Of a stretch of DNA of 48,776 nucleotides, positions 8,441 to 48,769 are shown in pieces. The notes beneath the pieces are model-generated. The model worked only from the letters and a program-made list of their open reading frames with translations, did not search any database and had not been told where the DNA came from. A program made the position numbers and the translations under genes. The stretch is from a virus, in IMG/VR virus record IMGVR_UViG_3300023703_000855, positions 1 through 48,776 of that record. One strand, given 5' to 3'. Positions within the stretch are counted from its first letter, which is position 1. Each line of letters opens with the position of its first letter.

Positions 8441-8463
8441 GCCCGCCGCGTGCGGGCTTTTTC
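8441..8463 (+). terminator. Rho-independent terminator in the late leader
   Basis: GCCCGC (8441-8446) pairs with GCGGGC (8452-8457) around a 5-base loop and is followed by TTTTT. It ends the short transcript from the 8384-8412 promoter and the early operon arriving from the left. Upstream, GGAG (8420-8423) and CTCC (8430-8433) can form a smaller leader hairpin. Confidence 0.8.
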
Positions 8464-8556
8464 ATTTTTATTGACCCCCTGCCGCCCTTTCAAGTGTCCG
8501 TCTCCCATGAGATAGGGATGGCTAGGGGCGTCATTCACCCTTGTGGAGACGTCACC

Positions 8557-8715
8557 ATGAACAAGCAAACCCCAGCCCAGCAAAAGAAAGTGGGCCTCAT
8601 CATGCGCGAGTTCGCCAAGGGCCAGCTCCACTCAGGCAAGGGCGGTCCCATCGTCAAGGACCAGAAGCAGGCCGTGGCTATTGCCATGAGCCAAGCCCGC
8701 CAACTCAAGAAGTGA
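8557..8715 (+). CDS. DUF6496-type small basic protein, 52 aa
   Basis: ATG 8557 is chosen (TGGAGA 13 bases upstream) over an in-frame start further left. The pattern 'MREFAKGQLHSGKGGPIVKD' then 'KQAVAIAMSQARQLKK' matches DUF6496 proteins, which occur next to phage packaging genes and have no proven role. It lies directly before the terminase small subunit. Confidence 0.7.
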   Translation: MNKQTPAQQKKVGLIMREFAKGQLHSGKGGPIVKDQKQAVAIAMSQARQLKK

Positions 8716-8716
8716 T

Positions 8717-10746: not shown

Positions 10747-10762
10747 CCAAAAAGAGAACATT

Positions 10763-12943
10763 ATGCACAACCCAGACGAAAACAAACAACACCTCGCCGT
10801 CATCGACGGCAACGAGATCATGACGCGCGAGCAATACGACCAGCGCGTGCACCAAGAGGTCGAGAAGTTGCACGGCATGTTCTCGCAGCTGCGCGACAAG
10901 TGGGTGCAGCACCGCGCTCAAAGCAACGTCGAGAAGCGTTGGCGCCGTGCGGCTCAGCTCTACTGGGGCGAGCACAACACCACGACCGGCGAGTTTGAGA
11001 ACACGTTACGTAACGGCCCGCCCGCCCGCAAGGTCACGGACGGCAACCGCTCACGCGTGGTGGTCAACATCGTGCGCCCCAAGGTGGACCAAGCCATTGC
11101 GCGCATGTGCGAGATTCTGTTCCCCACCGACGACAAGAACTGGGGCATCAAGCCTACGCCAATCCCAGACATAGCCAACATGATGGGCGACGAGCGCAAG
11201 ACGGTGAATCCACAGACCGGCGAACCCACCGGAATGACGGCAAACCAAGAGGCTCAGTTGGTGGTTGAGGCTGCCAAGAAGTCCGCTGAATCCATGGAGA
11301 AGTCCATCGACGACAGCCTGACCGAGGCTAAGTTCAATGGCGAGAGTCGTGAGCTGATCGACAACGCTGTGCGATTGGGCACAGGCATCATGCACGGCCC
11401 CTTTCCAGCCCGTCAAACGAGCAAGGTGTGGATACCCCAGCAGGGTGGCACGCAAATGCTTCAGATCAACGAATCCATCGTCCCATCGTCCGAGTCGCTC
11501 GACCCATGGAACACCTTCTTTGATCCAGCCTGCGGCAACGACCACCAGCGTGGCCGTGGTTTCTTCATCCGTCGCGACGTAACCCGCAAGGAATTGCGCC
11601 GCCTCGTGGGCATTCCTGGCTACGATGCCGACGCTATCCGCGACGTGCTGCGCGCGCCACCCAACCGCATCCGTGTGGCCGAGGGCCGCGTCATGCGCGA
11701 CGTCATCAAGGAAGACAGCTACGAGATGTGGACCTATCACGGCGAGATCGAGCCTGACGAGATGGAGTTGCTGACCATGCGCACCAACGCCGACCCGTTG
11801 ACTGACGTCGACTTCGGTGTACTGATCATGGTGAACGACAAAGTCATCGGCGCCATGGAGTCGTGGGTCGAAGACAAGAGTCTGCCGGTTGACGTGTGGT
11901 GCTGGCGCAAGTCCGACGACTCGCCTTATGGCTTTGGCTTGTGCGACGAGCTGGAGCACCAGCAGCGCGTGGTGAACTCTGCTTGGCGTCAGGTCATGGA
12001 CAACGGTCGCACCTCGCTTGGCGGCCAAGTGGTCATGCGCAAGGGCATGGTCATTCCACAGAACGGCAGCTACGAGATCACGCCCAACAAGATCTGGCTG
12101 GCCAAGGACGACACCGAGGACGTGAGCAAAGCCTTCAGCGTGTTCGAGTTCAACAGCCACTTGCAAGAGCTGCTTGCCATCGCGCAGGCAGCCATGACAT
12201 TTGCTGAGCAAGAGACCGGCATGCCCCAGCTCATGGGTGGCGAGAAGGGTAGCGCGCCCGAGACTGTCGGCGGCATGGTCATGCTGTACAACAACGCCAA
12301 CAGCGTGCTGCGCCAGCGCGTCAAGCTGTATGACGACTGCATCACCCGCCCACACATCGGTCGCTACTACGACTGGAAGATGGCCAACGATCCAGATCCA
12401 GAGATCAAGGGCGACTACGAGGTCGACGCCCGCGGCAGCACTGCGCTGATCGAGCGCGACATCCAGAACCAAGCCCTGCTGAACCTGGCCAACATCACCA
12501 ACAACCCACGCTACGTGCCTTACATGAAGGACCGTGCTGAGTTGCAGGCTATCTTGAAAGCATTCAAGGTCAACCCTGAAGAGCTGATGAAGTCCGAGGA
12601 TGAGTACAACCAGTTCATGGAGCAGCAAGCTAAGCAAGGCCAGCAGCAAGATCCTCGCATCGTGGCAGCCCAGATGAAGGCTCAGACCGAAGCGGCCAAG
12701 CTGGAAGACAACAAGGCTCAGCGAGAGTTTGAGGCGCAGAAGGAGCAGGGTGAGTACGAGATCGCGATGACTGATGCCTCCATCACTCGAGACCTTGGCA
12801 TCGCCAAGCTCGAGCAGGACGGCACGCTGACCCGCGAGGAGATCGCAGCCAAAGAACGCTTGGCCTCGCTCGAGATAAACAACGAGCGCGAGCTGTTCAA
12901 TGCCGAGGCCGCCATCAAGGTGAACCAAGGTTCTGGAATTTAA
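10763..12943 (+). CDS. Portal protein
   Basis: A 726-residue protein starting at ATG 10763; in-frame codons to its left overlap the terminase gene. The core has the portal-type 'NIVRPKVDQAIARMCEILFP' and 'SYEMWTYHGEIEPDEME', with 'KSDDSPYGFGLCDELEHQQR' and 'PQLMGGEKGSAPETVGGMVM' in the middle. The last 130 residues are a Gln/Glu-rich coiled coil, like the barrel of podovirus portals. The length fits podovirus portals. It forms the ring for DNA entry and tail attachment. Confidence 0.88.
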   Translation: MHNPDENKQHLAVIDGNEIMTREQYDQRVHQEVEKLHGMFSQLRDKWVQHRAQSNVEKRWRRAAQLYWGEHNTTTGEFENTLRNGPPARKVTDGNRSRVVVNIVRPKVDQAIARMCEILFPTDDKNWGIKPTPIPDIANMMGDERKTVNPQTGEPTGMTANQEAQLVVEAAKKSAESMEKSIDDSLTEAKFNGESRELIDNAVRLGTGIMHGPFPARQTSKVWIPQQGGTQMLQINESIVPSSESLDPWNTFFDPACGNDHQRGRGFFIRRDVTRKELRRLVGIPGYDADAIRDVLRAPPNRIRVAEGRVMRDVIKEDSYEMWTYHGEIEPDEMELLTMRTNADPLTDVDFGVLIMVNDKVIGAMESWVEDKSLPVDVWCWRKSDDSPYGFGLCDELEHQQRVVNSAWRQVMDNGRTSLGGQVVMRKGMVIPQNGSYEITPNKIWLAKDDTEDVSKAFSVFEFNSHLQELLAIAQAAMTFAEQETGMPQLMGGEKGSAPETVGGMVMLYNNANSVLRQRVKLYDDCITRPHIGRYYDWKMANDPDPEIKGDYEVDARGSTALIERDIQNQALLNLANITNNPRYVPYMKDRAELQAILKAFKVNPEELMKSEDEYNQFMEQQAKQGQQQDPRIVAAQMKAQTEAAKLEDNKAQREFEAQKEQGEYEIAMTDASITRDLGIAKLEQDGTLTREEIAAKERLASLEINNERELFNAEAAIKVNQGSGI

Positions 12944-12944
12944 T

Positions 12945-12973
12945 TTGCACATCGTCAAAAAATGATGTACATT
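12945..12973 (+). promoter_or_regulatory. Candidate promoter for the capsid genes
   Basis: TTGCAC (12945-12950), 17-base spacer, TACATT (12968-12973). The match is weaker than the 8.4-kb promoter, but the following leader aligns with that unit: TGAT-TA, CGC-TCGG, GCAG and TGTCTC occur in the same order and spacing, then a GCCCGC hairpin and T run. The shared layout supports real promoters at both places. Confidence 0.55.
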
Positions 12974-12979
12974 TCGCTT

Positions 12980-13016
12980 CGGGCAGGTGTCTCTTGATGC
13001 AGGCCCGCGGTTTTTT
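12980..13016 (+). terminator. Leader hairpin with T6 after the 12.9-kb promoter
   Basis: CGGGC (12980-12984) and GCCCG (13003-13007) can pair around an 18-base loop, with T6 at 13011-13016. It matches the terminator at 8441 in position within the leader. It is weaker, because the loop is long and three bases separate stem and T run. Confidence 0.5.
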
Positions 13017-13033
13017 CATGAGCCATTAGTTGA

Positions 13034-13066
13034 GGCGCCCCTTAAAAAAGGGCGCCTTTTCTTTTT
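13034..13066 (+). terminator. Rho-independent terminator upstream of the capsid operon
   Basis: GGCGCCC (13034-13040) pairs with GGGCGCC (13050-13056) and is followed by TTTTCTTTTT. It stands between the portal and the 13079 gene, so portal transcripts would stop here unless antiterminated. The ribosome-binding site of the next gene begins 3 bases after the T run. Confidence 0.85.
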
Positions 13067-13078
13067 CCGGAGACGACA

Positions 13079-13312
13079 TTGAAACTTGAAGACTTCCACA
13101 GCATGTGCTGGAAGCGGCTTTCGAAATTGATTGACGAACGGGTCGATGAATTACGAAAGCTCAACGACTCTGAACTGAGTCCTGAGAAAACAGCCTTGGT
13201 GCGTGGTGGCATCAAGGAACTGAAAAAGATCCTCGCCCTTGCAGAAGATGCAAGCGCGGGAGCAGCAGTCAGCCCCGATGAATTAAGCGGCGCCGACATT
13301 ACCCGCCAGTAA
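13079..13312 (+). CDS. Small helical head-region protein, 77 aa, TTG start
   Basis: Initiates at TTG 13079 with CCGGAG ideally placed at 13067-13072. The N-terminal 60 residues are helical and charged ('KLIDERVDELRKLNDSEL', 'GGIKELKKILALAEDA'), with a flexible Ala/Gly/Ser tail. Position between portal and scaffold suggests a minor head or assembly protein. No family recognised. Confidence 0.65.
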   Translation: MKLEDFHSMCWKRLSKLIDERVDELRKLNDSELSPEKTALVRGGIKELKKILALAEDASAGAAVSPDELSGADITRQ

Positions 13313-13337
13313 TGGTGACAAGTGAGACGACAACCAA

Positions 13338-14234
13338 ATGACCGTACAGGAACAAACTAACCCACAAGACGAAGCCCAGAAGATTTGGGACCAGCTCGAC
13401 GCTGAGGAAACTGGCAAGGCATTGCCGGACGACAAGGCTGAGGGAACTCAGGCAACTGAGTCATTGGATTCGCAAGAGGCATCAGATCAACGCCAGCAAG
13501 CACCCGCCGATCAGGCCGATGCAAGCGCAGGCGCTGGCGCTGAGAGCAACGAGCAATCATTGATGGACAAAATCGCTGGCTTGGAGAGCATGCTCTCACA
13601 AGTGACAACTCGTCTTCGGAATGCAGAAGGCCATATCGGCGGCTTGAATGGACAGTTGAAGCAACATCAGCAATTGGCCAAGCAAGTAGCCAACTCAGGC
13701 GGCGACGCGCCTAACGCGGATCAAATCCGTCAGGCGCAGAGCAGCCCAGAGGCCATGGCCAACTTAAAGCGCGACTACCCAGAGTTCGCGGACGCAATGG
13801 AGTCTGCCTTAAAGCAGCAGATGCTCGAGCAGGAGCAGCGCCTCAAAGCGTTGATCCAAGATCAAAAGGGTGGCGTCAGCCACGAAGAGATCGCTCAGAT
13901 GCGTTCAGAGCTGGCGGTGGAAGCAAAGCATCCAGGTTGGCAAGATCGTGTACAGACGCCTGAATTCATGGGCTGGCTGCAACGCCAGCAACCCGAAGTC
14001 CAGATGCTTGCGGCGAGCGAAAGCCCGCGAGATGCAATTCGATTGCTAGATCTGCACAACGAAGCCACGAATCCAGCAACGTCAGCAAACAAAACGCAGC
14101 GCCTTAGCTCTGCGGCGGCTATTCCTTCTGGGCGCAGCGCCGGTTCATCCGCACGCGGCAAAGCAGTAGAGGATATGACGCCACAGGAATATTGGCGCTA
14201 CCTCGATGAACTCGATAAGCAAAAAGGTAATTAA
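13338..14234 (+). CDS. Scaffolding protein (likely)
   Basis: 298 residues, acidic and Gln/Ala-rich, with an unstructured N terminus, a central coiled coil ('DKIAGLESMLSQVTTRLRNA') and a helical C terminus ending 'MTPQEYWRYLDELDKQKGN'. It lies directly before the major capsid gene with a 2-base gap, as phage scaffolds do. It would guide capsid assembly inside the prohead and leave before or during packaging. Assignment is by position and composition. Confidence 0.72.
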   Translation: MTVQEQTNPQDEAQKIWDQLDAEETGKALPDDKAEGTQATESLDSQEASDQRQQAPADQADASAGAGAESNEQSLMDKIAGLESMLSQVTTRLRNAEGHIGGLNGQLKQHQQLAKQVANSGGDAPNADQIRQAQSSPEAMANLKRDYPEFADAMESALKQQMLEQEQRLKALIQDQKGGVSHEEIAQMRSELAVEAKHPGWQDRVQTPEFMGWLQRQQPEVQMLAASESPRDAIRLLDLHNEATNPATSANKTQRLSSAAAIPSGRSAGSSARGKAVEDMTPQEYWRYLDELDKQKGN

Positions 14235-14236
14235 CC

Positions 14237-15283
14237 ATGCAAACGTATTCCTTAGTTCCCTCACGGAACCTCATCATGGCCGAGCGCGAAATGCTCAAGC
14301 ATGCTCAGCCAATCAAAGTTTTGTCAACCTTCGGTTCACAAAAACAAGTCCCTCAAAACAAGACTGACACCGTGGTGTTCCGTCGTGCTCTTCCTTTGGA
14401 TGCTGGCACAAACGGCGCTCCTAACGTGACAGCAAGCAACTACTTGATGCAAGAAGGCGTGACTCCAGCAGCTCGCACCATCACGTATCAAGACGTGCAA
14501 GTGACATTGCAACAGTACGGCGTGTTGATGAAAATCTCTAGCAAAGCTGAGTCTTTGTACGAAGACGACATCCCTGCTGACATGGTCAAGCTGGTTGGCG
14601 AGCACATGGCTACTCTGGAAGAGTTGATCTCTTACGGTGTGGTTCGTGGCGGCACCAACGTCGTGTTTGCCAACGGTACCGTGCGTACTGCTGTGAACAC
14701 TGCAGTGACCGTGAACAAGTTGCGTCAAGCTGCTCGCCAATTGGAGAGCGCACACGCACAACTCGTGACTGAGCGTCTGTCTGCCAGCGTGAACTTCGGT
14801 ACATCCGCTATCGAACCTGGCTACTTGGTGTTCATCCACACTGACTTGGAAGCCGACTTCCGTAACTTGTCCGTCAACGGCGTGACAGTGTTCACACCTG
14901 TGGCTAAGTACGGTTCACAAAAGCCAGTGCACGAGCGCGAGATCGGTACTGTTGAGCGTTTCCGCATCATCACATCGCCTTACTTCAAGCCATTCTTGGC
15001 TGCTGGTGGCACTGTGACTGCAGGCGCTTTCTTGTCTAACGGCGGCACCACTGGTACCACCGCTGACGTGTACCCAATCATGGTCGTTGGCCAAGAAGCT
15101 TGGGGTCAAGTTGCATTGAAGGGCCAAAACGCCATTCAACCAATCTACTTGCCCGCAAAGACAATCACCCACGCTAACCCAATGGGTCAGTTCGGTTATG
15201 TCGGCGCAAACTTCTGGAAGAACGCCGTCCGTCTCAATGAGAACTGGATGGTGAGGGTCGAGGTCGCAGCTTCTGGCTTGTGA
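14237..15283 (+). CDS. Major capsid protein, N4-gp56 type
   Basis: 348 residues. Segments characteristic of the N4-gp56 capsid family are visible: 'VTLQQYGVLMKISSKAESLY', then 'EHMATLEELISYGVVRGGTN', 'VNKLRQAARQLESAHAQL', and a C-terminal 'VGQEAWGQVALKG' followed by 'PMGQFGYVGANFWKNAVRL'. Codon choice shifts here to GCT, GGT, CGT and TTG, unlike the flanking genes, as expected for the most abundant virion protein. It forms the icosahedral shell. Confidence 0.88.
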   Translation: MQTYSLVPSRNLIMAEREMLKHAQPIKVLSTFGSQKQVPQNKTDTVVFRRALPLDAGTNGAPNVTASNYLMQEGVTPAARTITYQDVQVTLQQYGVLMKISSKAESLYEDDIPADMVKLVGEHMATLEELISYGVVRGGTNVVFANGTVRTAVNTAVTVNKLRQAARQLESAHAQLVTERLSASVNFGTSAIEPGYLVFIHTDLEADFRNLSVNGVTVFTPVAKYGSQKPVHEREIGTVERFRIITSPYFKPFLAAGGTVTAGAFLSNGGTTGTTADVYPIMVVGQEAWGQVALKGQNAIQPIYLPAKTITHANPMGQFGYVGANFWKNAVRLNENWMVRVEVAASGL

Positions 15284-32527: not shown

Positions 32528-35500
32528 ATGGCAAAAGCATGGTCTGACGTAGCGGGTAGTTCCGCATTCCAGGCCCTCTCACTTGAGCAGCAAGAAGAGG
32601 CGCGAACTCAATACTTTGATAGCGTCGTTGCGCCTCGAGTGCCTAGCGAAGATATTGAGATTGCAAGGTCCCAGTTCATGGGGGCCACCAAACTTGGCGG
32701 GCCAGCTACCGCAGCGACGCCAGCCAAAGAAGACAAGGGCATCATCCAACGCATCAAAGATGCGGTGATGCCAGAGTACAAGAGCGTGCTCGAAACTCAG
32801 GCGCCAACACAGCAGCAAGAGCAAGCCAACGTCAGCCAGCGCTTGTCGCTGGGTGCAGGTCCAATCAGCAAAGAGACTGCAGCAAAGGCTGATTTGTTGC
32901 GCAGCGGCATACTCAAAGAGCCAGCCACTTTGCCGGTGCAAAAAGCTGCAGCAGGTTTGGCTGAGCAGAACGCTCCCACATTCGCTGAAATCTCACGCAA
33001 CCCAGAGCGTGAAGCCGAGTTGGCCAAGCAGATCAGTCGTCAGCAATTCGCCGAAGAGAACCCACTGCTTGGCAGCGTTGCTTCTGGAGCGGCCAGCATG
33101 TTGGCTGGCAACATCAATATCCCAACCGTGGCAGCTGACGTCTTTAACAAGACGGTGATTGACCCAGTGCTTCAGGTTGCAGGCTTCAAGCCAATGCAGC
33201 GCGTCGGCAATATGTTCGGCACTGAGTATCTGGACAAGGCGGCAAGCGACTTCATGCCTGCCATCGGCAAGAAGTCAATGACCGGTGCGTGGAATCGTGA
33301 AGAGTTCTCGCCATGGCTGATGTCCAAGTTGGCATCAAACTCACCACAGGTTGCGCAGCAATTGCTTGCTGCATTCTCGCCAGCTCTACGTGGCGGCATG
33401 CTGCTGTCCATGTCCGGAACTGCAGCCGGTCAAAGCTTCGCTCAGGGTGACGACTCACGTGTGGCCATGATGAAGGGCGCACTCGAGTACGCGACCGAGA
33501 AGCTACCGCTTGGCGTATTCGACAAGGTGGGCGACATCTTTAAGGGCATGCCAGTTCCCAAGCAGAACGCGATCTTGGCCATTGCAGGCCAACGTGTTTT
33601 GCAGGCTGGCGCTCAGGTCACCGCCAACACTTTGACCAACGCAATCGAGGAGACGGCTGCGCAATACGGCGGCAACGTGCTCGACAAGTATTTGCAAGGC
33701 AAGGACATCGACATCAACAAGGGCGTCGCTGAGTCTGCTTTGGTGGGCGGATTGACCGGCACGATGATGACGACGCCGCAGGTAGCCGCCACCCTTGGCG
33801 GGGCTAATGAGCGCCCATTTGAGCAACCCGCACCAGAGGTATCAACCGCTGAACAAATGGCTAAGGAGCGTGGTTTCCTGACGCCTCAGCGCCCCGCTAC
33901 CCAGCTCACCAACTTCACCCCAGCCGACAGCCCTACAAAGGCCGCCGGTTTGGTGGACGTTGTTGTGCCTGTGCCGGTAGCAACCCCGTCGATAACCCCG
34001 TCCATAACTCCATTGGAAGGGGTTCAGATTAACCCCGAGACTGAGCAGCAGTTCGGTCTTGACAAACTACGACTGGGGACAACCAATGTCGGCGTACCAA
34101 GCACAGCTGGAACCACGAATGTACCTAGCGGTGCAGGCGGGGGCGTTGAAAATATCGGAGGCGTGGGCACTGCAGGACCTAGCGTATCTGGTGGGACCCA
34201 ACCAAGTGCTGCTGCTACCACCGCAGCTCAGCTCGGCGGTGGACAGGTTGCAGCTGCTGGAGCAGCCAACGGCCAACAGCCTACCACTCTAAAGCAGGAA
34301 TGGTATGGACGCCGCGGCGATGGCTACCTCACCAAGCCCGACGCCGAGCAGGCGTTGGCTGGACGTCAGCGCATGTTCCCAGACCTGCAGTGGCAGGTCG
34401 ACCAATTACCCACCGGCAAGTACCGTCTTGCTGGCTATGAAGCTGCAACGCCAGAGGTGGCTCAGGCTGTTGTCGGCGAGAAGATCAACAAAGACTGGAC
34501 CGCATTCTCACCAGAGTCTGGCAGCCTCGGCATCCCCCGCGCGGACATGCCACAAGTTAAGTCAGAGCATCGCGGTGCAATGGTCAACTTTCTCAATGCG
34601 CGCGGCATCACCAGCGAGCAAGAGTCCGTCGACCCGTCAACACTCAAGCCAACGCAGGCCGAGTTTTCTCCGGCAAAGGTTGAGATGGCCAAAGAGAATC
34701 GCGGCACTGACCGCGCAATTCTTGTGTCCTCTGACAACCGTGTGATCGACGGCCACCACCAGTGGATGGCCAAGCTTGAGAGCGGCGAACCCGTCAACGT
34801 CATCAGGCTCAACGCGCCAGCATCGGAGTTGATTGATGCCATCAAAGAATTCCCAAGTTCAACAACAGCAACAGGATCAAACCTTGGCACTCAAACCACT
34901 CAAGCCCAGCAAGCAGCGCAAGAAGGACAGCAAGCAATCACCCCAGCCATCGGCGCCGCTGCGCCCAATGTGCAAGGTGCTGGACTTGAAGGACTGAAGC
35001 TCGCGCCTCAAGCATCGATGCGCGTGATCAGCTCTGTGCGCAAGGCGTTGATCAAAGAGAACGTCGAGATCGCGCCAGTGCCACAGGTTGACATGAGTGA
35101 ATCTCAAAAGGCAGCGAGTGCTGTTGCCCACATGCTTGGCAAGACGCTCACCGTGGTGCGCTACGAATCTGGTGACCAGTCGGCCATGCCCAACGGCATG
35201 ATCGACAAGCTGGGTGGCAACAATATTTTTGTGGCCAGCGACACAGAGGATTCGCCATTGTTTGTGGTGATGCACGAAGCGCATCACGGCCTGCCGCAAG
35301 AGACTCGCACCAAGCTGAATGATGCGCTCAACTCTTTGTTCAAAGAAGAGATGCGTGGCGAGTTCGCTCGAGAGTTCAACTACACCGAAGACAAACTCGA
35401 CGAAGAGATCCCCGCCTTCATGGTGCAGGCAATCTCAAAGCGTGCTGACTTTTGGGAACAGCTACGAGCCAAGATGGGCAACAAGGATTTTGCCGAGGTA

Positions 35501-38500
35501 GCAAAGCACATCCTGTCCAAGCTCAATGAGATCATCACAGGCGCACGCAAAGAGTACGGCGAAGACTTCGTCACCAAGTACATCAAAGACGTGGAGAAGG
35601 CTCGCGACTTGTTGACCACAGCCTATGCTGACGCGATCAACAACAAGGCTGCCGCCGAATCTGCCAAGCAGGTTGCGTCTGTCACTGGCCCTGTCACAAA
35701 AGATGAGGCCGTCATCGATGGCGTCATGTACTCCGCGCGCTCGCGCGACTTGGTGAAGCTGCCAACGATTGAGATCAAGGACCTGCTGGGCAAGCGAGTC
35801 ATGGGCATCAAGGCTGACTTGACCGACGCGGGCGTGAGCTACACCGGCATCGACGGTAGCCAGCTCGAGTTCCCTATCGAGATGATGGGTGGCCCCAACT
35901 TTGTGGCGCTGCCAGCAAACGTGAAGAGCAATGTGGTGTGGGCTGTTCGTGGTGGCGCAACGCTGACCAAGATCATGAACGTGGTCAACAACAGTGACTA
36001 CATCATTGTGCACGCCATGAATGGCAACAGCCACTTGACAAACGCAACCATCTCTCAAGCGTATGTGCAAACCGTTGAGGCTTACCTCAAAGACAAGCGC
36101 ATCAGCGTGGAGAACTTGCGCGCGCTGGACAAGATCGTTCGCTCACCAGCAAACAAAAACTCGTTGCCAGATTTCGTTGGCTTCGAGTCACCCAACATCA
36201 TCGAGTACATCGATGGCTTGTCGTTTGATCAGCGCGGTGCGTTGGCTAAGATCTTGGAAAAGAAAGAGGCGCAAATCCACGGTCTGCCAAACCTTGATCG
36301 CTTCCGTCGCGAGACCATTGACCCAGAGTACGCTGGCTACCGTCAAGGTGACGCCATGCTGGTGATCGAGGTCGACAAAAAGAACCCAACCGTCAAGCTC
36401 GGTGAAGAGGGCACGAAGATGCATCCCTCCTACCCGCTTGGCCTGCGTGGCAAGGTGGTGGGCAAGCTCGCCAAGGGTATCAACTACGAGCTGATCTACC
36501 GCGACTACTTCGAGAACAAGGTCCCAACACTTGGCAACAAAGAGGCCGGTGCGTGGTACGCATTCGACCGCGTGCTGCCAGTGCAAGAGATCACACCAGA
36601 GATCGCTGCATCTGTTTCAGAGGGTGGCTACAAAGCTATCAAGTCTGCACGACAGGCCGAGGCTTCACTCGCGTTGGCCAACAACAACTGGCTCGTGTCT
36701 GGCAAGACCAAGGCAGAGGGTGGCGTGTCGGTGCAAGAGTTCGTCGACGCACTCGCTGCGAACGAAGGCGCTGCTGCGCTGACCATGTACACGCCTGAGC
36801 AAGTCAAGGCTGGCATCAAGGACAAGAGCTTCAGCATCTACCAACTCGGCAAGCAAGGTGGCGACAAGGGCCTGCAAGTTTTCTTCGGTCTCAAGCGCGG
36901 CGCGCCTTGGTACAAGGACATGATCGACGGCGTCTCGGACAACGAGGTCGAGGTCGTGTCGGTCACCAACAACGAGACCGGTGCACAGGGTGTTGGAATT
37001 CCTGCTATCATCACAAAAGCTATACAAGAAGGTGCGACTATCTTGGATGCGTTCGCCGTCAAGAGCAAGCGCTTCCCTGATGGATTCTTGCCTGAGATGT
37101 ACAGCCAATTCGGCTTCGAGACGATTGGTTCAATCCCATTCGACGAAAGCTTTTACGATGCCAACCAGATGGCTGACCTGAAAAAGTTTTGGGCAGACGG
37201 TGGCTGGAAAGAATCTGATGGCTACCCAGATGTGGTGGTCATGAAGTGGAAAGGTAATGATGATGAACGATCAACAGCAATTGAGCGATATGCAAGATCG
37301 GGTGCTACAGGTGTTTCCGGACGAGGTGTGGAAGACGTTCGCGCAGCAGCAGCAGAATCTCGCAAACAACGCAATGGATCGCGTGCTGAAAAAGGACGGG
37401 CCAAAGGCGCTAACGCTGGACAGGTTGGAGGGGATCAAGGAGTTGGTAACGCAGCACCTGTGGTCCGACGCGCTTACGACAGCATCCAAGAGCTTGCCAG
37501 CCTCAGCGATGGCGACATCCGAAACCTCGGACTCGACCCAGCTGAAGTCGCCAAGCTCAGAGATTCGATCAGCGGCATTCAATTCAGCAAGCGCGGACTC
37601 AATGAATCTGCCGGAGGACCCAGCGTTGGGCGCGATCCGAGCGGCGCAAGCGGCTCAATCAAAGTCGTCGGCGCAGTCCACTACGGAAAGCAAGCAGGGC
37701 TGAGCATGCTGTCTGGTACCAGCTCTGGTACTGGAATAAAAGGCGCCGAGCAACAACGCTTGGCCCAGCCCAATGTTGACCCACGCATCAAGCGTCGCGT
37801 CTACTTCTACCTGCCTATGGCGGGCGGCATTCCTCAAGCTGAAATCGGCTTGGGCACAAACGTCTACACCGCAAACCTGAGCAACCTGTACGACCCATCT
37901 TCTGGCGTGCTGAAAGTTCCATCGGAACCCAACGCATTCGAGTCGTTCATCCTTGACTCTGGCTACCGTGGCTACATCAACCGCGAGCAGGGCACTGCCG
38001 TGGTGTTGAACTCTGACGTCCCAGTCAAGGCTATTGGCAAGTCAACCGAGCAGGCGGTTGTGCCTCGCAAAGTTGAGCGCGTGGTGGCCGCCGTCAAGAC
38101 CCGTGCAGAGGGTGATGAGCTGGTGCGCAAACCAACCAACGACGAGATGGCTGGCATCATCAAGGCTCGCCCCGCGTTGACCAAGGCTGCCCCGTCATTC
38201 AAGCTTGAGTTCGGTGAGGCTCGCGTCAAGGCCAGCGAATCAGCTGCCGCCGATGCTGCGTTGACTGATGCGGGTGCAAGCTTCCAGTTTGGCGGCCCAG
38301 CATTTAGCAACCGCTCAATTGGCCAGGCCTTGCAAGAGCGCATCAATGCCAACCCAGAGCAGGTCATCGGCGAGTACGAGAACCTCAAAGGCACAGACGG
38401 TGGTCGCATCTTGGATACCGACATGGTGCGCGAGCTGTCGCCTGAGTACCGTGCCGACAGATCTCGTGCAGCTGAGGTTCATGAGGCTGCCAGCGAGTTG

Positions 38501-39340
38501 ACTCAGCTCATGTTCGAACAGCGCATGGCCGCCAACAAGGTTGGCGCTGTGGCGTTCATGGCTGGTGGCGGCGGCGCTGGCAAGTCAACTGCTGACGATC
38601 TCGTCGGAGACAAGCTAAAAAATGCTCACACAATTTTGGATGGCACGCTGTCCAGCTATGACAAGGCCAAGCGGAATGTGCAGCTTGCGCTTGATCATGG
38701 CAATAGCGTGCGCATTTATTACGTGTATCGTGAGCCTGTGGAGGCGCTTCGCAATGGTGTTCTCACAAGAGCAATGCGCACGGGTCGCACCGTCACCATC
38801 GATGCGTTGGTCAAGGGTCATGCTGGCTCTAGTAGTGTTGTAAGAAAACTACAAGATGAGTTCGGCGACAACCCATTGTTTGATCTTGTTGTGATCGATA
38901 ACTCGCGCGGACAAGGCAACGCAAAGATCGTAGATCTGAAAGACATCACACCTGTGATACAATCAGGACTGAAAGAGAGGTTACAAAATGAGACAGAAAA
39001 GCTTTATCAAGAGGGACGCATCGGGGAAACTGTACGTCGAGCAACCACCGCCTCGTACCCTGACGCCACAAGAGATTCTGGAGCGGGATCGGATCGCGAA
39101 GGAAATAGACGAGGGAATCAGGGAGGCGTTCAAGGACGGGCTGGATCTGAGCAACTACAACTCTCGTTGACCAAGTTGTTCACGGACCTTCGCGGCGCTC
39201 GTGGCCTGAAGCTTGCCCGCGTGCAAGAGCAGGTGGAAAATAACCCGCTTAGCGCGGCAATCAAAAACGTCGAAGAGAACTTCTACGACATCGTCGGCCA
39301 GCTCGAAGAGGACGGCCTCATCAAAATCAATTGCAAGTAA
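32528..39340 (+). CDS. Giant polyvalent virion protein, 2270 aa (ParB-like, HExxH peptidase-like, GNAT-like, zeta-kinase-like)
   Basis: The N terminus ('MAKAWSDVAGSSAFQAL') and residues 1-450 look like the internal core proteins of podoviruses. Residues about 650-778 carry a ParB/Srx-like 'NRVIDGHHQWMAKLESG'. H916-E917-A918-H919-H920 with a downstream 'DEEIPAF' is a zinc-peptidase pattern. Residues 1058-1400 are an unnamed conserved-looking module. Residues 1400-1576 look GNAT-like ('PEMYSQFGFETIGSIPF'). Residues 1711-1932 hold a polyvalent-type domain ('HYGKQAGLSMLSGTSSGTGIKGAEQQRL'). Residues about 2000-2150 are zeta-toxin-like with P-loop 'AGGGGAGKST'. Such polyvalent proteins are thought to enter the host with phage DNA and counter defences. 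Two other genes are overprinted in its linkers. Confidence 0.82.
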   Translation: MAKAWSDVAGSSAFQALSLEQQEEARTQYFDSVVAPRVPSEDIEIARSQFMGATKLGGPATAATPAKEDKGIIQRIKDAVMPEYKSVLETQAPTQQQEQANVSQRLSLGAGPISKETAAKADLLRSGILKEPATLPVQKAAAGLAEQNAPTFAEISRNPEREAELAKQISRQQFAEENPLLGSVASGAASMLAGNINIPTVAADVFNKTVIDPVLQVAGFKPMQRVGNMFGTEYLDKAASDFMPAIGKKSMTGAWNREEFSPWLMSKLASNSPQVAQQLLAAFSPALRGGMLLSMSGTAAGQSFAQGDDSRVAMMKGALEYATEKLPLGVFDKVGDIFKGMPVPKQNAILAIAGQRVLQAGAQVTANTLTNAIEETAAQYGGNVLDKYLQGKDIDINKGVAESALVGGLTGTMMTTPQVAATLGGANERPFEQPAPEVSTAEQMAKERGFLTPQRPATQLTNFTPADSPTKAAGLVDVVVPVPVATPSITPSITPLEGVQINPETEQQFGLDKLRLGTTNVGVPSTAGTTNVPSGAGGGVENIGGVGTAGPSVSGGTQPSAAATTAAQLGGGQVAAAGAANGQQPTTLKQEWYGRRGDGYLTKPDAEQALAGRQRMFPDLQWQVDQLPTGKYRLAGYEAATPEVAQAVVGEKINKDWTAFSPESGSLGIPRADMPQVKSEHRGAMVNFLNARGITSEQESVDPSTLKPTQAEFSPAKVEMAKENRGTDRAILVSSDNRVIDGHHQWMAKLESGEPVNVIRLNAPASELIDAIKEFPSSTTATGSNLGTQTTQAQQAAQEGQQAITPAIGAAAPNVQGAGLEGLKLAPQASMRVISSVRKALIKENVEIAPVPQVDMSESQKAASAVAHMLGKTLTVVRYESGDQSAMPNGMIDKLGGNNIFVASDTEDSPLFVVMHEAHHGLPQETRTKLNDALNSLFKEEMRGEFAREFNYTEDKLDEEIPAFMVQAISKRADFWEQLRAKMGNKDFAEVAKHILSKLNEIITGARKEYGEDFVTKYIKDVEKARDLLTTAYADAINNKAAAESAKQVASVTGPVTKDEAVIDGVMYSARSRDLVKLPTIEIKDLLGKRVMGIKADLTDAGVSYTGIDGSQLEFPIEMMGGPNFVALPANVKSNVVWAVRGGATLTKIMNVVNNSDYIIVHAMNGNSHLTNATISQAYVQTVEAYLKDKRISVENLRALDKIVRSPANKNSLPDFVGFESPNIIEYIDGLSFDQRGALAKILEKKEAQIHGLPNLDRFRRETIDPEYAGYRQGDAMLVIEVDKKNPTVKLGEEGTKMHPSYPLGLRGKVVGKLAKGINYELIYRDYFENKVPTLGNKEAGAWYAFDRVLPVQEITPEIAASVSEGGYKAIKSARQAEASLALANNNWLVSGKTKAEGGVSVQEFVDALAANEGAAALTMYTPEQVKAGIKDKSFSIYQLGKQGGDKGLQVFFGLKRGAPWYKDMIDGVSDNEVEVVSVTNNETGAQGVGIPAIITKAIQEGATILDAFAVKSKRFPDGFLPEMYSQFGFETIGSIPFDESFYDANQMADLKKFWADGGWKESDGYPDVVVMKWKGNDDERSTAIERYARSGATGVSGRGVEDVRAAAAESRKQRNGSRAEKGRAKGANAGQVGGDQGVGNAAPVVRRAYDSIQELASLSDGDIRNLGLDPAEVAKLRDSISGIQFSKRGLNESAGGPSVGRDPSGASGSIKVVGAVHYGKQAGLSMLSGTSSGTGIKGAEQQRLAQPNVDPRIKRRVYFYLPMAGGIPQAEIGLGTNVYTANLSNLYDPSSGVLKVPSEPNAFESFILDSGYRGYINREQGTAVVLNSDVPVKAIGKSTEQAVVPRKVERVVAAVKTRAEGDELVRKPTNDEMAGIIKARPALTKAAPSFKLEFGEARVKASESAAADAALTDAGASFQFGGPAFSNRSIGQALQERINANPEQVIGEYENLKGTDGGRILDTDMVRELSPEYRADRSRAAEVHEAASELTQLMFEQRMAANKVGAVAFMAGGGGAGKSTADDLVGDKLKNAHTILDGTLSSYDKAKRNVQLALDHGNSVRIYYVYREPVEALRNGVLTRAMRTGRTVTIDALVKGHAGSSSVVRKLQDEFGDNPLFDLVVIDNSRGQGNAKIVDLKDITPVIQSGLKERLQNETEKLYQEGRIGETVRRATTASYPDATRDSGAGSDREGNRRGNQGGVQGRAGSEQLQLSLTKLFTDLRGARGLKLARVQEQVENNPLSAAIKNVEENFYDIVGQLEEDGLIKINCK
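37263..37703 (+). CDS. Overprinted small protein inside the giant gene (+1 frame), 146 aa
   Basis: In the +1 frame relative to the giant gene, a run of three ATG codons (37257, 37260, 37263) follows GGAAAGG, and a 146-residue frame runs to 37703. It reads as a real protein ('LSDMQDRVLQVFPDEVWKTF', 'AMDRVLKKDGPKALTLDRLE'). The giant protein at this point is a low-complexity Ala/Gly/Arg linker, as expected where a second frame carries the constraint. Family unknown. Moderate confidence: it needs expression data. Confidence 0.55.
   Translation: MNDQQQLSDMQDRVLQVFPDEVWKTFAQQQQNLANNAMDRVLKKDGPKALTLDRLEGIKELVTQHLWSDALTTASKSLPASAMATSETSDSTQLKSPSSEIRSAAFNSASADSMNLPEDPALGAIRAAQAAQSKSSAQSTTESKQG
38956..38963 (+). 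promoter_or_regulatory. Extended -10 promoter inside the giant gene
   Basis: Bases before 38988 read TGTGATACAATC, an extended -10 (TGnTACAAT) at about 38955-38963. It has no clear -35. The same 12 bases, with one change, form the 4861-4870 promoter core. It is 25 bases before ATG 38988. Confidence 0.45.
38988..39170 (+). CDS. Overprinted small protein near the giant gene's 3' end (+1 frame), 60 aa
   Basis: ATG 38988 follows GAGAGG. In the +1 frame a 60-residue basic protein 'MRQKSFIKRDASGKLYVEQP...LTPQEILERDRIAKEIDEG' is encoded. The giant protein's own frame here is an Arg/Gly/Ser-rich linker. Its own promoter-like sequence lies just upstream. Same relative frame as the 37263 gene. Family unknown. 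Confidence 0.55.
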   Translation: MRQKSFIKRDASGKLYVEQPPPRTLTPQEILERDRIAKEIDEGIREAFKDGLDLSNYNSR

Positions 39341-39349
39341 GGAATCAAA

Positions 39350-39835
39350 ATGGCAACCCGTAACTTTCTCAAGCCCGCCACCGAGGCGATCCTCAACAAG
39401 GCCGTTCACTCTGAGCTGTTCGCGTCCAACTTGTACAAGCACCTGTCGAATCACATGCAGCGCATGGGTTTCTTTGGCGCACAGAAGTTCTTCGCTGGCG
39501 AGAGTGCTGATGAGCTGACTCACTACCAGAAGCTGGCTGACTACATGAATGACCGCGGCTCAGTCGCCAACATCCCCATGGTCGAGGCGATGCGCGACAA
39601 ACCAACAAGTCTGCTCGATGCAATTGAAGTTGCGTTCGACACAGAGGTTGAGCTGATGGAGAACTACGAAAAGTGGTACGACGAAGCTGACTGCATTACC
39701 CAGCAATTCCTGTTGCAGTTTCTCGAGATCCAACGCAAGAGCGTCGGCGAGTACGGCGACTTGCTCGCACGTCTTTCCTTGATTGGCGACGACAAGTGCG
39801 GCCTGATCATCATTGACCAAGAGCTTGGCGAATGA
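39350..39835 (+). CDS. Ferritin (non-haem, FtnA-like), 161 aa
   Basis: The whole length aligns by eye to bacterial FtnA: 'ILNKAVHSELFASNLYKHLS' (Glu22), 'FFAGESADELTHYQKLADYM' (Glu55, His58), 'AIEVAFDTEVELMENYEKWY' (Glu99), 'FLEIQRK' (Gln128), then 'LARLSLIGDDKCGLIIIDQEL'. These give both ligands of ferroxidase site A and the bridging Glu. The FtnA C-site acids near 126-130 are replaced by Ile, Lys and Ser. It probably oxidises and stores iron. Preceded by AAGGAATCAAA; its stop overlaps the next ATG. A ferritin between two giant virion-type genes is unusual. Confidence 0.85.
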   Translation: MATRNFLKPATEAILNKAVHSELFASNLYKHLSNHMQRMGFFGAQKFFAGESADELTHYQKLADYMNDRGSVANIPMVEAMRDKPTSLLDAIEVAFDTEVELMENYEKWYDEADCITQQFLLQFLEIQRKSVGEYGDLLARLSLIGDDKCGLIIIDQELGE

Positions 39836-42561
39836 GCTGCACTTACAAGTTCAGCACCAAGGACGGGGAGCAGACCATCGTCGGCATGGCCGAGATGAAG
39901 GCTTTCCTCGTGTTGAATGGTGTCGACTCCATCATTGGTGGCGTTGACATTCAGATGAGTAAGCCATCTCTCAAGCTGTCTGAAGATGCAGAGATGCAAC
40001 AGGTCTACCTTGAGCAGAAGGCCAAAGAGGCTGGCTTCAAAACCGTCGACGAGTTTGTTGATGGCGACTACGAGGGCTTCGTGAAGGCGGCAGCTGACTG
40101 GCGCTATGAGCATCCAGCCGAGATGATGGAGGCCAAGCGTGGTAAGAAAGCCGAGGGTCCAACTCAGGCAACGGGCAAGGCCACCAATGGGTGGCTGCTG
40201 GCGCGTGATGATCTTGGCAACTTCCGCTTTGGTGCTGGCGCCAAGGCATACCGCTATGCAGCCGACGTGGCCAACTCGGTGCTGGACTTGGTAAAGCTCA
40301 AGCCGATTAGCCAAGACCTGTCTCGCGCCATCCGCAAGATGAAGGTTGAGATTGAGAAGGCCCAGAACTTGACGGTCGATGTGGCCAGCAAGATGAAGGA
40401 CCTGCCCGAGCAAGAGCGCCAGATGATCAGCGACATCATCGAGGGTGAACTCAAGCGCGGAGCTAAGCCACCAAAGCACATCCTCGAGCTGGCTGCATCC
40501 ATGCAGTCCATCATGTCTGAGCAGTCGGCTGAGCTGGTGCGCTTGGGCATGCTGAGCGAAGATGCCGCGGGCCGCTGGGATGGCAAGTACCTGCCACGCT
40601 TCTACGAGTCAAGGCTCAAAGATGAAACCAAGGCCTGGATGAAAGCTGCCAAGGCGCTGTTTGCCCGCAAGAAAACAATGCAGGGTATCGGTGGATCTAG
40701 CCTCAAGGGCCGTGGCATTTTCCAGAACGTGCCAGTGGAAGACAAGCAAGCTTGGCTCGATGAGGGATGGGAGGAGCGCGACGCTGACTTCGACCCAGCC
40801 GTCGACACCGAGATCACCATGTGGCGTGACTACACCCGCGAAGAGCGCGACGACATGGGCGAGATCCGTGACGCCATGTTCCGCTTCGTCATGGGTTACA
40901 ACAAGAGCCAGCGCGACATCGCACTTGGCCGCCTATATGAGAACCTGGCCAACACCGTGGCCATCAAGCACGAGGCCGAAGGCTACGTCGAGGTGCCCAA
41001 CACAAAGGTCGAGGGGACCAACGTCAAGACCTACGGCAAGCTGGCTGGCAAGTTCGTACCAACCGAAGTGCTTGATCACCTGAGCGCCTTTGATTCATCC
41101 ATGCAGGGCGACCTGATGAAGATGTACCTCAAGGGCCTGAGCATGTGGAAGGAAGGCAAGACGGTACTGAACCCAGTCTCACACGCCAACAACGTGCTGT
41201 CCAACCTGACCATGGCTCACTTCGCTGGCGTGTCCTATTGGGATGCTCACAAGTACGTGGGCGCGCTGCGTGACTTGGTCAAGGGTAACGCCATGATCGA
41301 TGAGGCCAAAGACGCTGGCCTGTTCGGTGGCACGTTCAACAAGGCCGACCTACTCAACGACATGCCCGAGCAGCTCAAGGTTCTGGCCATGGCCAGCGAA
41401 TCGAAGGCAGCCCAAGGCGTCGAGACCGTATGGAATGCCCTGTCATTCTGGCTGCGCAAGCCTGCAGGAAAGGCCTACGAGGCCGAAGATTTGTTCTTCC
41501 GATACCTGATATACCGCGATGCCCGTCAGCGCGGTCTAGACCCTGATGATGCGGTCGACTATGCCCAGAAGTACATCTTCACCTACGATGACTTGCCAAA
41601 GGGCGCACGCACGCTGCGCGACTTTGCGCTGCCGTTCTTCAGCTACACCTACAAGGTGGTCCCAACCCTAGCCCAGACTGCGCTCGAGCAGCCATGGCGC
41701 TATGCCGCACCGGCTGCCGCTCTGTACACGGTCAACGCCATGATGTACGCCATGGCCGCAAGCCTTGGTGGTGGCGACGACGAGGACTGGTGGGATGTGA
41801 TTCGTCGTTACGTAACGGACGAAGAGTTCCGAAACAAGGCGCGTGAGCTTGAGAAGTACGAGCGCAGCAACCTGCCACCATGGATGAAGGGCGCCAGCTT
41901 CACGCTTGGCACACCCAAGGCTATCCGCATGGGCATGGACGACGTCACCAACCTGCCGTTGTTCTTGGACGTGAGCCGCATTTTCCCTGGCGGTGACTTG
42001 CTTGATGCCAACTCAAACTCTGGCGGCATTCCATTGCTCCAGCCCTTGACGCCAAGCAGCCCGATTCTCAACACGATCGGCGCCATGATCTGGAACAAAG
42101 ACCCGTTCTTTGGGAAAGAGATTGTCGACAAGAACGACACCGGCGCAGAGGCCGCAGCAAAGCGAGGCAAGTGGTTGTGGACCCAGTTCGCACCCGCCGT
42201 GGCCATTGGCAACTACCACTGGGACCGAGCCATGAACGTGATTGCAAACGCAACCGGCGAACCTGTGCTCGGGTACACCGGCGTGGGCAAGGACGGCTTA
42301 CCAGTCCAACCTAGCTTAGCCGCTGCGCAAACCATCGGCATCAAGATTCGACCAGTTGACTTGGACCTATCCGAGAAAATCAACAAGGCCGAAAGACAGA
42401 AGCTCATCCAAGGTTTGGACTCCGAGATCAAACGACTCAAACGACTTGAGAACAAGGGTGCTATCACACCTGAGAACGCAGAGCGTGAGCGTGAGTTCCA
42501 GAAGCTGAAGATGCAGCGACTCAAGGAAGGTCTGGATGTCGAGGGCAACCCGATAGACTAA
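39832..42561 (+). CDS. Large ejection-type/polyvalent-associated protein (LPD38-like), 909 aa
   Basis: N-terminal 100 residues are a small alpha/beta part; the middle is long helices ('LSRAIRKMKVEIEKAQNLTV', 'AASMQSIMSEQSAELVRLGM'). The C-terminal third has 'DDLPKGARTLRDFALPFFSYTYKVVPTLAQ' and a hydrophobic 'AAALYTVNAMMYAMAASLGGG' stretch, patterns of large polyvalent-protein-associated phage proteins. It ends in a charged coiled coil. Likely packaged and ejected; membrane interaction is possible. Last gene of the late operon. Confidence 0.68.
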   Translation: MSCTYKFSTKDGEQTIVGMAEMKAFLVLNGVDSIIGGVDIQMSKPSLKLSEDAEMQQVYLEQKAKEAGFKTVDEFVDGDYEGFVKAAADWRYEHPAEMMEAKRGKKAEGPTQATGKATNGWLLARDDLGNFRFGAGAKAYRYAADVANSVLDLVKLKPISQDLSRAIRKMKVEIEKAQNLTVDVASKMKDLPEQERQMISDIIEGELKRGAKPPKHILELAASMQSIMSEQSAELVRLGMLSEDAAGRWDGKYLPRFYESRLKDETKAWMKAAKALFARKKTMQGIGGSSLKGRGIFQNVPVEDKQAWLDEGWEERDADFDPAVDTEITMWRDYTREERDDMGEIRDAMFRFVMGYNKSQRDIALGRLYENLANTVAIKHEAEGYVEVPNTKVEGTNVKTYGKLAGKFVPTEVLDHLSAFDSSMQGDLMKMYLKGLSMWKEGKTVLNPVSHANNVLSNLTMAHFAGVSYWDAHKYVGALRDLVKGNAMIDEAKDAGLFGGTFNKADLLNDMPEQLKVLAMASESKAAQGVETVWNALSFWLRKPAGKAYEAEDLFFRYLIYRDARQRGLDPDDAVDYAQKYIFTYDDLPKGARTLRDFALPFFSYTYKVVPTLAQTALEQPWRYAAPAAALYTVNAMMYAMAASLGGGDDEDWWDVIRRYVTDEEFRNKARELEKYERSNLPPWMKGASFTLGTPKAIRMGMDDVTNLPLFLDVSRIFPGGDLLDANSNSGGIPLLQPLTPSSPILNTIGAMIWNKDPFFGKEIVDKNDTGAEAAAKRGKWLWTQFAPAVAIGNYHWDRAMNVIANATGEPVLGYTGVGKDGLPVQPSLAAAQTIGIKIRPVDLDLSEKINKAERQKLIQGLDSEIKRLKRLENKGAITPENAEREREFQKLKMQRLKEGLDVEGNPID

Positions 42562-42564
42562 AAG

Positions 42565-42588
42565 AAAAGGGACCCGAGGGTCCCTTTT
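42565..42588. terminator. Bidirectional terminator between convergent operons
   Basis: AAAAGGGACC (42565-42574) pairs with GGTCCCTTTT (42579-42588) around a 4-base loop. A T run follows on the plus strand and another (complement of AAAGAAAA) on the minus strand. It ends the rightward late operon and the leftward operon. Confidence 0.88.
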
Positions 42589-47128: not shown

Positions 47129-48183
47129 CACTTCACCACCGTTCCACTCACGCCTTGCGCCTGCAAGTCAAGCTTCAGCTTGGCTACGTCGCCAAGCAGC
47201 AGTTTGTTTTCCAAGTCACGGATCTCTTGCGAATCGAGCGAGGTCAGGCGCTCGCCGTTGGCAAACGTCTGGCCAGTGGCCTTGGTTGTATATACAACGT
47301 CGCCGTCCACGAAGTCGGTCATGGTGGCGAAGTTGTCCAGCAGGATCGGGATGTAGCGATGGTTGGTGCAACCCTCGCGCTGCACCTCGAGCGGCAGGTC
47401 GAACTTGTGGTGCGCGCAGGACCAGCGTGCATCTCCATCAGGCTCAGCGGTTGAGTGTGCGCACGTGCGGCAGTTGACTGCCGGCGCCATCTCGCCATGG
47501 CAGTGGGCGTGGAAGTCGCACATCTTGCAAGTGAACCAGCTCGGGTCATTGCTGCACTTGAGTGGCGGCTCATTCGAGAAGATGACACGCTCAGCACGCG
47601 CCTTCAGTTTGGCGAACTCGTTCACATCGAAGTGGACCCACTCCGTGTAGATCTCATCCGTCTCTTTGCAGATGCAGGTGTACATTGCTCGGTCCATGTT
47701 GGTGTATCCGCAATAGGTCATCATTTGCGAATAGTGCAGCGGCTTAGCCTTTTGGACACCGTTTTTTTGCAGCTCACGAAAGCCCTTGGTGTTGCTAGTC
47801 TTGCACTCCCATACCGCCCAAGTTTTTGGACCCTCTGGAAAACCTTTTCCAGCGCCATCCATTGATCCACCGAAGTGCTTGCCAAGATCTTCGACTTTCC
47901 ACTGTTTACCATCTGGGGTTTCCGTGTGAAGTTCCACCCCGATGCGACGCAAGTTCTTCGCCATCCGCTCTTCTGCAAGTTGGCCGGTTTCGAAAAGTCG
48001 AAGCATGCGACCTTCAAATTTTTTTGCATCCACCCATCTGAATGTGAGCCACAAAAATCGCTCACATGCATGTCCGATCAATGAGGCTCCGAGGTGTGGG
48101 CGATTTCCGTTCTCAGCATCCTCTTCGTATGCCGCATAAATCATGCTTGCTGTTGCGTGAATCGGTTCTGGTAGCTTAGCCAT
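47128..48183 (-). CDS. PD-(D/E)XK nuclease (RecB/Cas4-like), 351 aa
   Basis: ATG 48183 is preferred over longer frames because AAATCTTGGAGA is just upstream. Catalytic motifs: 'GSMDG' (Asp109) and 'WECKTSN' (Glu126-x-Lys128), with an N-terminal 'GASLIGHACERFLWL' helix. A C-terminal Cys cluster ('CSNDPSWFTCKMCDFHAHC', 'CRTCAH') may hold an Fe-S or zinc site, as in Cas4-like nucleases. It likely resects DNA ends or recombination intermediates with the helicase nearby. Overlaps the GIY-YIG gene end by 8 bases. Confidence 0.85.
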   Translation of the reverse strand: MAKLPEPIHATASMIYAAYEEDAENGNRPHLGASLIGHACERFLWLTFRWVDAKKFEGRMLRLFETGQLAEERMAKNLRRIGVELHTETPDGKQWKVEDLGKHFGGSMDGAGKGFPEGPKTWAVWECKTSNTKGFRELQKNGVQKAKPLHYSQMMTYCGYTNMDRAMYTCICKETDEIYTEWVHFDVNEFAKLKARAERVIFSNEPPLKCSNDPSWFTCKMCDFHAHCHGEMAPAVNCRTCAHSTAEPDGDARWSCAHHKFDLPLEVQREGCTNHRYIPILLDNFATMTDFVDGDVVYTTKATGQTFANGERLTSLDSQEIRDLENKLLLGDVAKLKLDLQAQGVSGTVVK

Positions 48184-48769
48184 TGATATTTCTCCAAGAT
48201 TTTCCAGACCAGATATTCCTGACGACATGCCAAGAAACGCCAAGATTTTTAGCAACATCTTTGGCGGTCGCAGTCCCTTTTGCATGTTTAATTTTCACTG
48301 CCAGCTCTTCATCAATTGTTGCTTTCGGATGCTTTGATCCGGTAAATACATCAACCTTCGCGGCTGAAAGCTTCGCCCGAGTCTCTGCTGAGTGCTTTCG
48401 ACCAAACATTGGGTTCTTTTCCCCAGAATTATTTCGTGAAGCAATAGCAGATAGTTTTGCGCGAGACTCATCATTCCACTTATATCCAGAGTTGCCTTCG
48501 CCGCCAATTGTTTTGTTGACAATATCAACACCCATGTTGCGCATGGTGTCAATTAAAAACACTTCATGATTGTGTGCTTCTTTTTCGGTTTCCCACTGAG
48601 CAAGAATGTGAACTTCATAACCATGCTTATTTGCAACATTTGACCAGTGGGCGCCACGCTTGCTGCGTCTGTTATCCCAAGCCCTGCGAGCAGAACCTTT
48701 TCCAATGTAAAAAGGTTTCCCCGTATCGTTCCTTGTGTGCATGTATGTGTAGTAGGGCAGTGCTGCCAT
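48176..48769 (-). CDS. GIY-YIG homing endonuclease with NUMOD3-like repeats
   Basis: Residues 1-90 form the GIY-YIG fold ('YYTYMHTRNDTGKPFYIGKG', later 'EAHNHEVFLIDTM'). Then follow a NUMOD3-type segment 'GEKNPMFGRKHSAETRAKLS' and a C-terminal wHTH ('TAKDVAKNLGVSWHVVRNIW'). It likely cuts phage DNA to spread. Only 7 bases lie before the ATG in this window, so a start further upstream cannot be excluded. Overlaps the nuclease start. Confidence 0.87.
   Translation of the reverse strand: MAALPYYTYMHTRNDTGKPFYIGKGSARRAWDNRRSKRGAHWSNVANKHGYEVHILAQWETEKEAHNHEVFLIDTMRNMGVDIVNKTIGGEGNSGYKWNDESRAKLSAIASRNNSGEKNPMFGRKHSAETRAKLSAAKVDVFTGSKHPKATIDEELAVKIKHAKGTATAKDVAKNLGVSWHVVRNIWSGKSWRNING

Follow-up and report, generated by a model that had tools for sequence, protein, structure and literature searches.

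A phage-specific ferritin and two flanking protein termini form a cassette that splits a giant late-protein gene in uncultured phages

Why should a phage carry a ferritin gene, and why should that gene lie between two large late proteins? The window (the whole stretch of DNA analysed here, 48,776 nucleotides, positions 1 to 48,776 of IMG/VR virus record IMGVR_UViG_3300023703_000855) holds such an arrangement, which the initial annotation had described as a 161-residue ferritin aligned with bacterial FtnA between a 2270-residue and a 909-residue neighbour; all three are present as open reading frames (ORFs), laid out as follows.

32528..39340, + strand: POLY, a polyvalent protein of 2270 aa, upstream half of a split giant protein (ORF; domain matches)
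39338..39343, + strand: Shine-Dalgarno sequence TAAGGA, sharing bases with the POLY stop codon (most relatives: T(A/G)AGG)
39350..39835, + strand: ferritin gene, 161 aa, ATG start (Pfam match, PDB alignment, AF2 fold, residue conservation, dN/dS)
39832..42561, + strand: downstream late protein of 909 aa (core homologous to the C-terminal part of a continuous giant ORF)
42565..42588, no strand assigned: terminator-like hairpin just after the 909-aa gene, which may close the operon (pattern match only; 10 pairs, T tract called on the - strand)

The product of the 161-aa gene matches the Pfam family PF00210 (Ferritin) with an E value of 7.1e-21 and 75.1 bits, against a gathering cut-off of 24.5, and its residues 7-160 align with bacterial and archaeal ferritins in the PDB. 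An AF2 model built on an alignment of 15 phage relatives has a mean pLDDT of 91.7 and five helices (residues 9-39, 42-68, 88-112, 115-145 and 149-160), the last being the short C-terminal helix E, and Foldseek superposes it on E. coli FtnA (9bye/1eum) with a TM score of 0.92 and an rmsd of 1.1 A. The window ORF is therefore a genuine classical five-helix ferritin, and the likeness to FtnA that had been noticed from the sequence holds in the predicted structure as well. Two other identities were ruled out: that of a Dps protein, by the lack of a BC helix, the presence of helix E, the intra-bundle ligands and best structural matches that are Ftn, and that of an encapsulin cargo ferritin-like protein (a two-helix fold with its own targeting peptide), by the five-helix Ftn fold.

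Six residues (E22, Y29, E55, H58, E99 and Q128) do not vary in any of the 65 unique full-length phage relatives. In the register of the PDB alignment, site A consists of E22, E55 and H58, which had been recognised at the outset, with E55 as the bridging ligand; E99, which had been taken for the bridge, instead belongs to site B together with Q128, and Y29 is the conserved tyrosine (E55, E99, Q128 and Y29 are equivalent to FtnA E50, E94, Q127 and Y24). The position of FtnA E130 is occupied by S131, and because of this the ferroxidase centre resembles the vertebrate H-chain set, which has A144 there. The initial annotation also held that the third-site acids of FtnA are replaced, and this is so for E126 and E129 (I127 and K130 in the window ferritin) but incomplete for E49, which becomes D54; among the relatives D54 is variable, position 127 is I, T or L, position 130 is T or K, and S131 recurs. 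The set of four third-site acids, E49, E126, E129 and E130, is accordingly not kept in the phage ferritin. Selection on the gene is strongly purifying, with dN/dS values of 0.02-0.15 among the six closest relatives, its ferroxidase residues are kept, and its product is best read, from these residues, as ferroxidase-competent.

One scan of IMG/VR confirmed relatives of this ferritin in at least 89 records, 80 of which were kept (49-94% identity). In the INPHARED collection of isolates there were four weak matches, 20-27% identical and all in unannotated "UNVERIFIED" records, three of which served only as outgroup. The view that phage ferritins are uncommon thus stands for sequenced isolates, where this ferritin is rare, but not for the uncultured lineage of the window, where it is common. 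In the tree, read without row OUT_L292, the phage ferritins form a deep phage-only clade apart from the three cellular-type outgroup ferritins, and by its sequence the window ferritin belongs to a phage-specific subfamily. When 84,980 species of bacteria and archaea were scanned by pattern, no bacterial chromosome with a close copy came up; the only two contigs with a close relative (L131 and L132, from metagenome-assembled genomes binned as Burkholderiales and Rhodoferax) both carry the same phage cassette, a weak hint to the host of the window lineage. Two of 300 genomes of the order Burkholderiales match this ferritin type, one of the two being a phage contig, and the host order is uncertain.

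The spacing of the genes is tight. In the window, the POLY stop codon is followed after 9 nt by the ferritin ATG, with the Shine-Dalgarno sequence lying over the stop, and the ferritin stop overlaps the start of the 909-aa gene by 4 nt (ATGA), which bears out the coupled stop-start that had been reported; co-transcription with the probable ejected proteins, proposed at the same time, agrees with the appearance of this layout. The same gene order was sought in other phages and recurs in dozens: wherever the flanks are long enough, nearly all sampled loci place the ferritin after a giant polyvalent protein and before another large late protein. Its start lies 7-19 nt downstream of the giant ORF (TAAGG or TGAGG over its stop), the second large ORF starts -26 to +4 nt from the ferritin stop, and over dozens of loci the distances to the tail-bearing and head-bearing neighbours span -26 to +17 nt. 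Even three very divergent phages (L085, L124 and L129) keep the order of POLY tail, ferritin and downstream-protein head that is defined below. Promoter matches in the window were not above chance (5 found, 4.6 expected), and searches of the window for RNA families and tRNAs found none. At the window end, a homing endonuclease-like gene (48176-48769) lies beside a Cas4-type exonuclease gene.

The two neighbours are themselves unusual proteins, and POLY contains two regions with recognisable relatives.

34394..34888, + strand: POLY residues 623-787, a region common to phage proteins annotated as DarB-like antirestriction, PLxRFG and internal virion polymerase (tblastn, 50-58% identity)
38306..39148, + strand: POLY residues 1927-2207, a zeta-toxin (P-loop kinase) region (PF06414, E 1.5e-11; PDB match to zeta_1 toxin)

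The first of these may be read, from the annotations of its relatives and a DGHH motif, as a DdrB-like ParB domain. Taken together, the zeta toxin, the DdrB/DarB-like region and continuous homologues of 3.2-3.9k aa mark POLY as a polyvalent protein, and it is probably packaged in the head and ejected. The core of the 909-aa protein is 66% identical to the C-terminus of the continuous ORF in two ferritin-less relatives (G018 and G021); its AF2 model, from a 13-row alignment, has a pLDDT of 45 and was not taken to a fold search, and a role in ejection is suggested by its gene context and homology. The zeta-toxin domain lies upstream of the ferritin in the window group (38306-39148 in the window) and follows it in some twenty relatives, a relocation between the giant-protein halves seen in L020, L021, L022, L029 and L082-L084; large domains therefore shuffle across while the ferritin keeps its place. 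The C-terminal bulk of the downstream protein also exists in at least two non-alignable versions that have been exchanged (L006:10489-13512; L069:603-3488; G012 ORF 5442-15083), both of which occur in ferritin-less continuous ORFs as well, the modular swap falling just after the head of about 40 aa.

What the ferritin interrupts becomes clear from relatives that lack it, in which a single uninterrupted ORF occupies the site (3213 aa in G012, 3469 in G009, 3513 in G018, 3884 in G020 and 3395 in G021). Ferritin-less and ferritin-bearing phages have backbones with identities of 85-86% for the major capsid protein (MCP), 68-73% for the portal and 52-85% for the helicase. Homology to the G012 protein ends at POLY residue 2207 (G012 residue 2282) and begins again at G012 residue 2286, which corresponds to residue 40 of the downstream protein in L069. 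From these breakpoints, the insert comprises a tail of about 63 aa, the ferritin and a head of about 39 aa, about 800 bp in all (39149-39949 in the window), and adds two features to those given above.

39149..39337, + strand: cassette part 1, POLY residues 2208-2270, the C-terminal tail with the end ...LIKINCK (G012 homology stops at POLY residue 2207)
39832..39948, + strand: cassette part 3, the N-terminal head of the downstream protein, about 39 aa, MSCTYKFSTKDGEQTIVGMAEMKAFL... (G012 homology from L069 residue 40)

Among relatives, the tail (about 60 aa) has the consensus end (K/E/S)INC(K/D), and the head begins M..C.Y.F. When IMG/VR was searched with the tail, 58 of 58 loci adjoined a ferritin; the head found 60 loci, of which two end at a contig edge and all 58 testable ones have a ferritin upstream. 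The patterns for both searches came from ferritin loci, so the searches are biased towards such loci and not fully independent. Neither the tail nor the head HMM matched in the ferritin-less records checked. A ferritin search of the ferritin-less sisters, run without a positive control, found none, and its repetition on other records gave three positives among 16 long MCP-related records, some of them fragments; the ferritin is therefore dispensable for the backbone. Ferritin, tail and head diverge in step, their distances correlating at 0.80-0.83 across 42 loci (r = 0.83 for the tail and for the head, each against the ferritin). Tail, ferritin and head form one cassette that splits a giant ORF, with strict co-occurrence in the loci examined; its distribution may reflect either gain or loss. 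The tail has a single Cys, conserved in 58 of 58 loci within the last two residues, and the head likewise, at position 3-6 in 59 of 60 loci, the remaining head being cut by a contig end; in the window these are the Cys of the INCK end near 39335-39337 and head Cys3 at 39838-39840, and they may serve in a disulfide, a metal site or docking. Intein-like splicing of the INC and MxC ends, entertained as an idea only, was dropped for lack of an intein signature. Because a stretch of 319 aa is identical in the "ADP-ribosyltransferase" of Y3 and its polyvalent protein, Y3 does not serve here as the main comparison without ferritin.

The ferritin is also found at other positions. In two lambda-type loci (L080 and L081) it directly follows the portal gene, with the major head protein downstream in L081; these ferritins and that of L079 are closely related (61-64% identity), a possible case of transfer between unrelated phage types (the portal was profiled in L080 and L081 only). 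The L079 locus resembles the other two. In L130 the neighbours of the ferritin are a GroES-like gene and virion structural genes, and three prohead proteases of uncultured phages in BFVD (A0A6J7XDU5, A0A6J7WIS1 and A0A6J7WPK9) have predicted structures that match the ferritin/Dps bundle weakly and could possibly be head-targeted Dps fusions. From the placement in L080, L081 and L130 and these structural matches, ferritin-superfamily proteins seem to recur in head or virion gene blocks.

What, then, might the ferritin do? It is tied to the large proteins more closely than first noted, because both neighbours have dedicated termini and together correspond to one ORF that is continuous in the ferritin-less sisters. 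These termini are most simply explained as docking or guiding the ferritin, or as setting its spacing, relative to the two late proteins, so that it would be loaded with them. We propose that the ferritin would be translated in step with both giant-protein halves from the late operon; that the POLY tail, the 909-aa head or both would bind or guide it; that it would be assembled with the ejection proteins, or loaded next to them, in the capsid; and that it would there oxidise and sequester Fe(II), shielding the packaged DNA and the injected enzymes from Fenton damage, or alternatively would serve the particle as a carrier of iron. That the ferritin is co-loaded into the virion with the ejection proteins via the cassette ends, with iron chemistry taking place there, is in our judgment an even call; the fuller proposal, a ferritin-cargo system in which terminal peptides of two ejection proteins dock the ferritin, which is then enclosed in the capsid for use there or for delivery, is put forward tentatively, as something short of probable. 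What we infer is that the termini bind the ferritin, that it is present in the virion and loaded with iron, and that it brings a benefit at infection. The least secure step is delivery into the cell: a ferritin 24-mer is a cage of about 12 nm, and an assembled one would be too large for a podovirus tail channel, so that subunits would have to be ejected unfolded or before assembly. Conservation of the tail and head may, moreover, reflect their joint inheritance as parts of the cassette and not binding to ferritin.

The main rival, which we think somewhat unlikely, places the ferritin in the host cytoplasm late in infection, where, without ever entering the virion, it would limit Fenton damage to phage DNA and proteins by mopping up Fe(II) set free as the host is damaged, or by storing iron; its place in the late operon would then mean no more than that a moron-type gene can be expressed there. 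An intact ferroxidase centre and coupling to a late operon fit this account, a freshwater phage ferritin has earlier been read as a defence against reactive oxygen (PMC6802176), and the scarcity of this ferritin type in Burkholderiales-order genomes means that it may add a function that the host lacks; yet the account leaves unexplained the ferritin-only ends of both flanking proteins, the splitting of one particular ORF and the recurrence of ferritins in the head blocks of unrelated phages. Those ends would be explained if a ferritin oligomer acted as a structural hub that joins the split halves via tail and head, with iron chemistry secondary, and the sharp break that gives each half a new terminus, the joint inheritance of tail, ferritin and head and the one conserved Cys in each end all fit; we nevertheless regard a hub as improbable, since a pure scaffold would not need ferroxidase residues that are invariant in 65 of 65 relatives, the ferritin-less sisters manage with one chain, and the halves differ greatly in size. 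Finally, a passenger gene recently taken from a bacterium and without a role in the phage would suit the patchy presence among close relatives (three of 16 records), but this reading is scarcely credible and is refuted by the low dN/dS (0.02-0.15) and by the depth of a clade that holds phage sequences only, apart from the cellular ferritins used for comparison, unless further members mostly turn out to carry decayed or relaxed copies, and both the recurrent synteny and the lack of a close chromosomal copy in the pattern scan of 84,980 species also stand against it.

Returning to a ferritin co-loaded with the ejection proteins, the cassette offers a defined, conserved and widespread genetic unit for testing whether phage particles carry ferritin, a question usually discussed only by way of tail-fibre iron and the Ferrojan horse hypothesis, which deals with iron carried by tail fibres and with receptors for siderophores; a siderophore-route "Ferrojan" entry is unsupported either way here. 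The comparison of phages with and without ferritin is a clean one, since apart from this difference their capsid proteins are 85% identical. Should the termini prove to bind ferritin, they would amount to a naturally occurring cargo system, with an end on either side, that loads it into a capsid, and if the cargo reading is true, ferritin would be built into the virus particle by design.

Phage ferritins and Dps proteins as such are already known; the new findings are a family specific to phages, a cassette that splits an ORF, and termini that occur together with the ferritin, and in the open-access literature text we found no description of a ferritin tied to polyvalent ejection proteins. Gut and Lactobacillus phages carry other proteins of the ferritin superfamily, Dps and Mn-catalase, and these (the Dps being of the 12-mer type) were reported without a split-ORF cassette (PMC8008677, PMC6669764). 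A Vi01-like phage has a ferritin-like prediction, gp217, which was reported in the virion proteome and whose gene was assigned, together with one for tail completion, to a suggested operon; entry of that phage did not depend on TonB or FeoB in the same study. Its designation as "ferritin" is a Phyre2 assignment only, at 22% identity, and the phage type differs from that of the window (PMC10892097). Head-packaged, injected polyvalent proteins are established in P1 DdrB and N4 vRNAP, and POLY is like these and P1 DarB in being a giant multi-domain late protein beside virion genes, with a DdrB-like region, a zeta toxin and a large C-terminal part (PMC5512222). The word "ferritin" is absent from the text of that paper, and the window lineage, unlike the P1 and N4 proteins, has its polyvalent protein split in two with a ferritin filling the gap.

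FtnA and the phage ferritin have in common the fold, helix E, the site-A ligands and the Glu, Gln and Tyr of site B. They are only 24-30% identical, the CD hairpin of the phage protein is about four residues shorter, and its score with the FtnA equivalog model NF007638 (NCBIfam) is 52.5 bits, below the cut-off of 178; to the replacement of E130 by S131 and the loss of the third-site E126 and E129 must be added that the phage ferritin, unlike FtnA, belongs to a phage-only clade with dedicated, docking-like flanks. In encapsulin systems, short terminal peptides bring a ferritin-type iron protein into an HK97-fold shell. The proposed loading of the phage ferritin would follow the same idea, and it differs in that the ferritin is of the classical five-helix and not the two-helix encapsulated type, the shell would be the phage capsid and the terminal peptides are borne by the neighbouring proteins.
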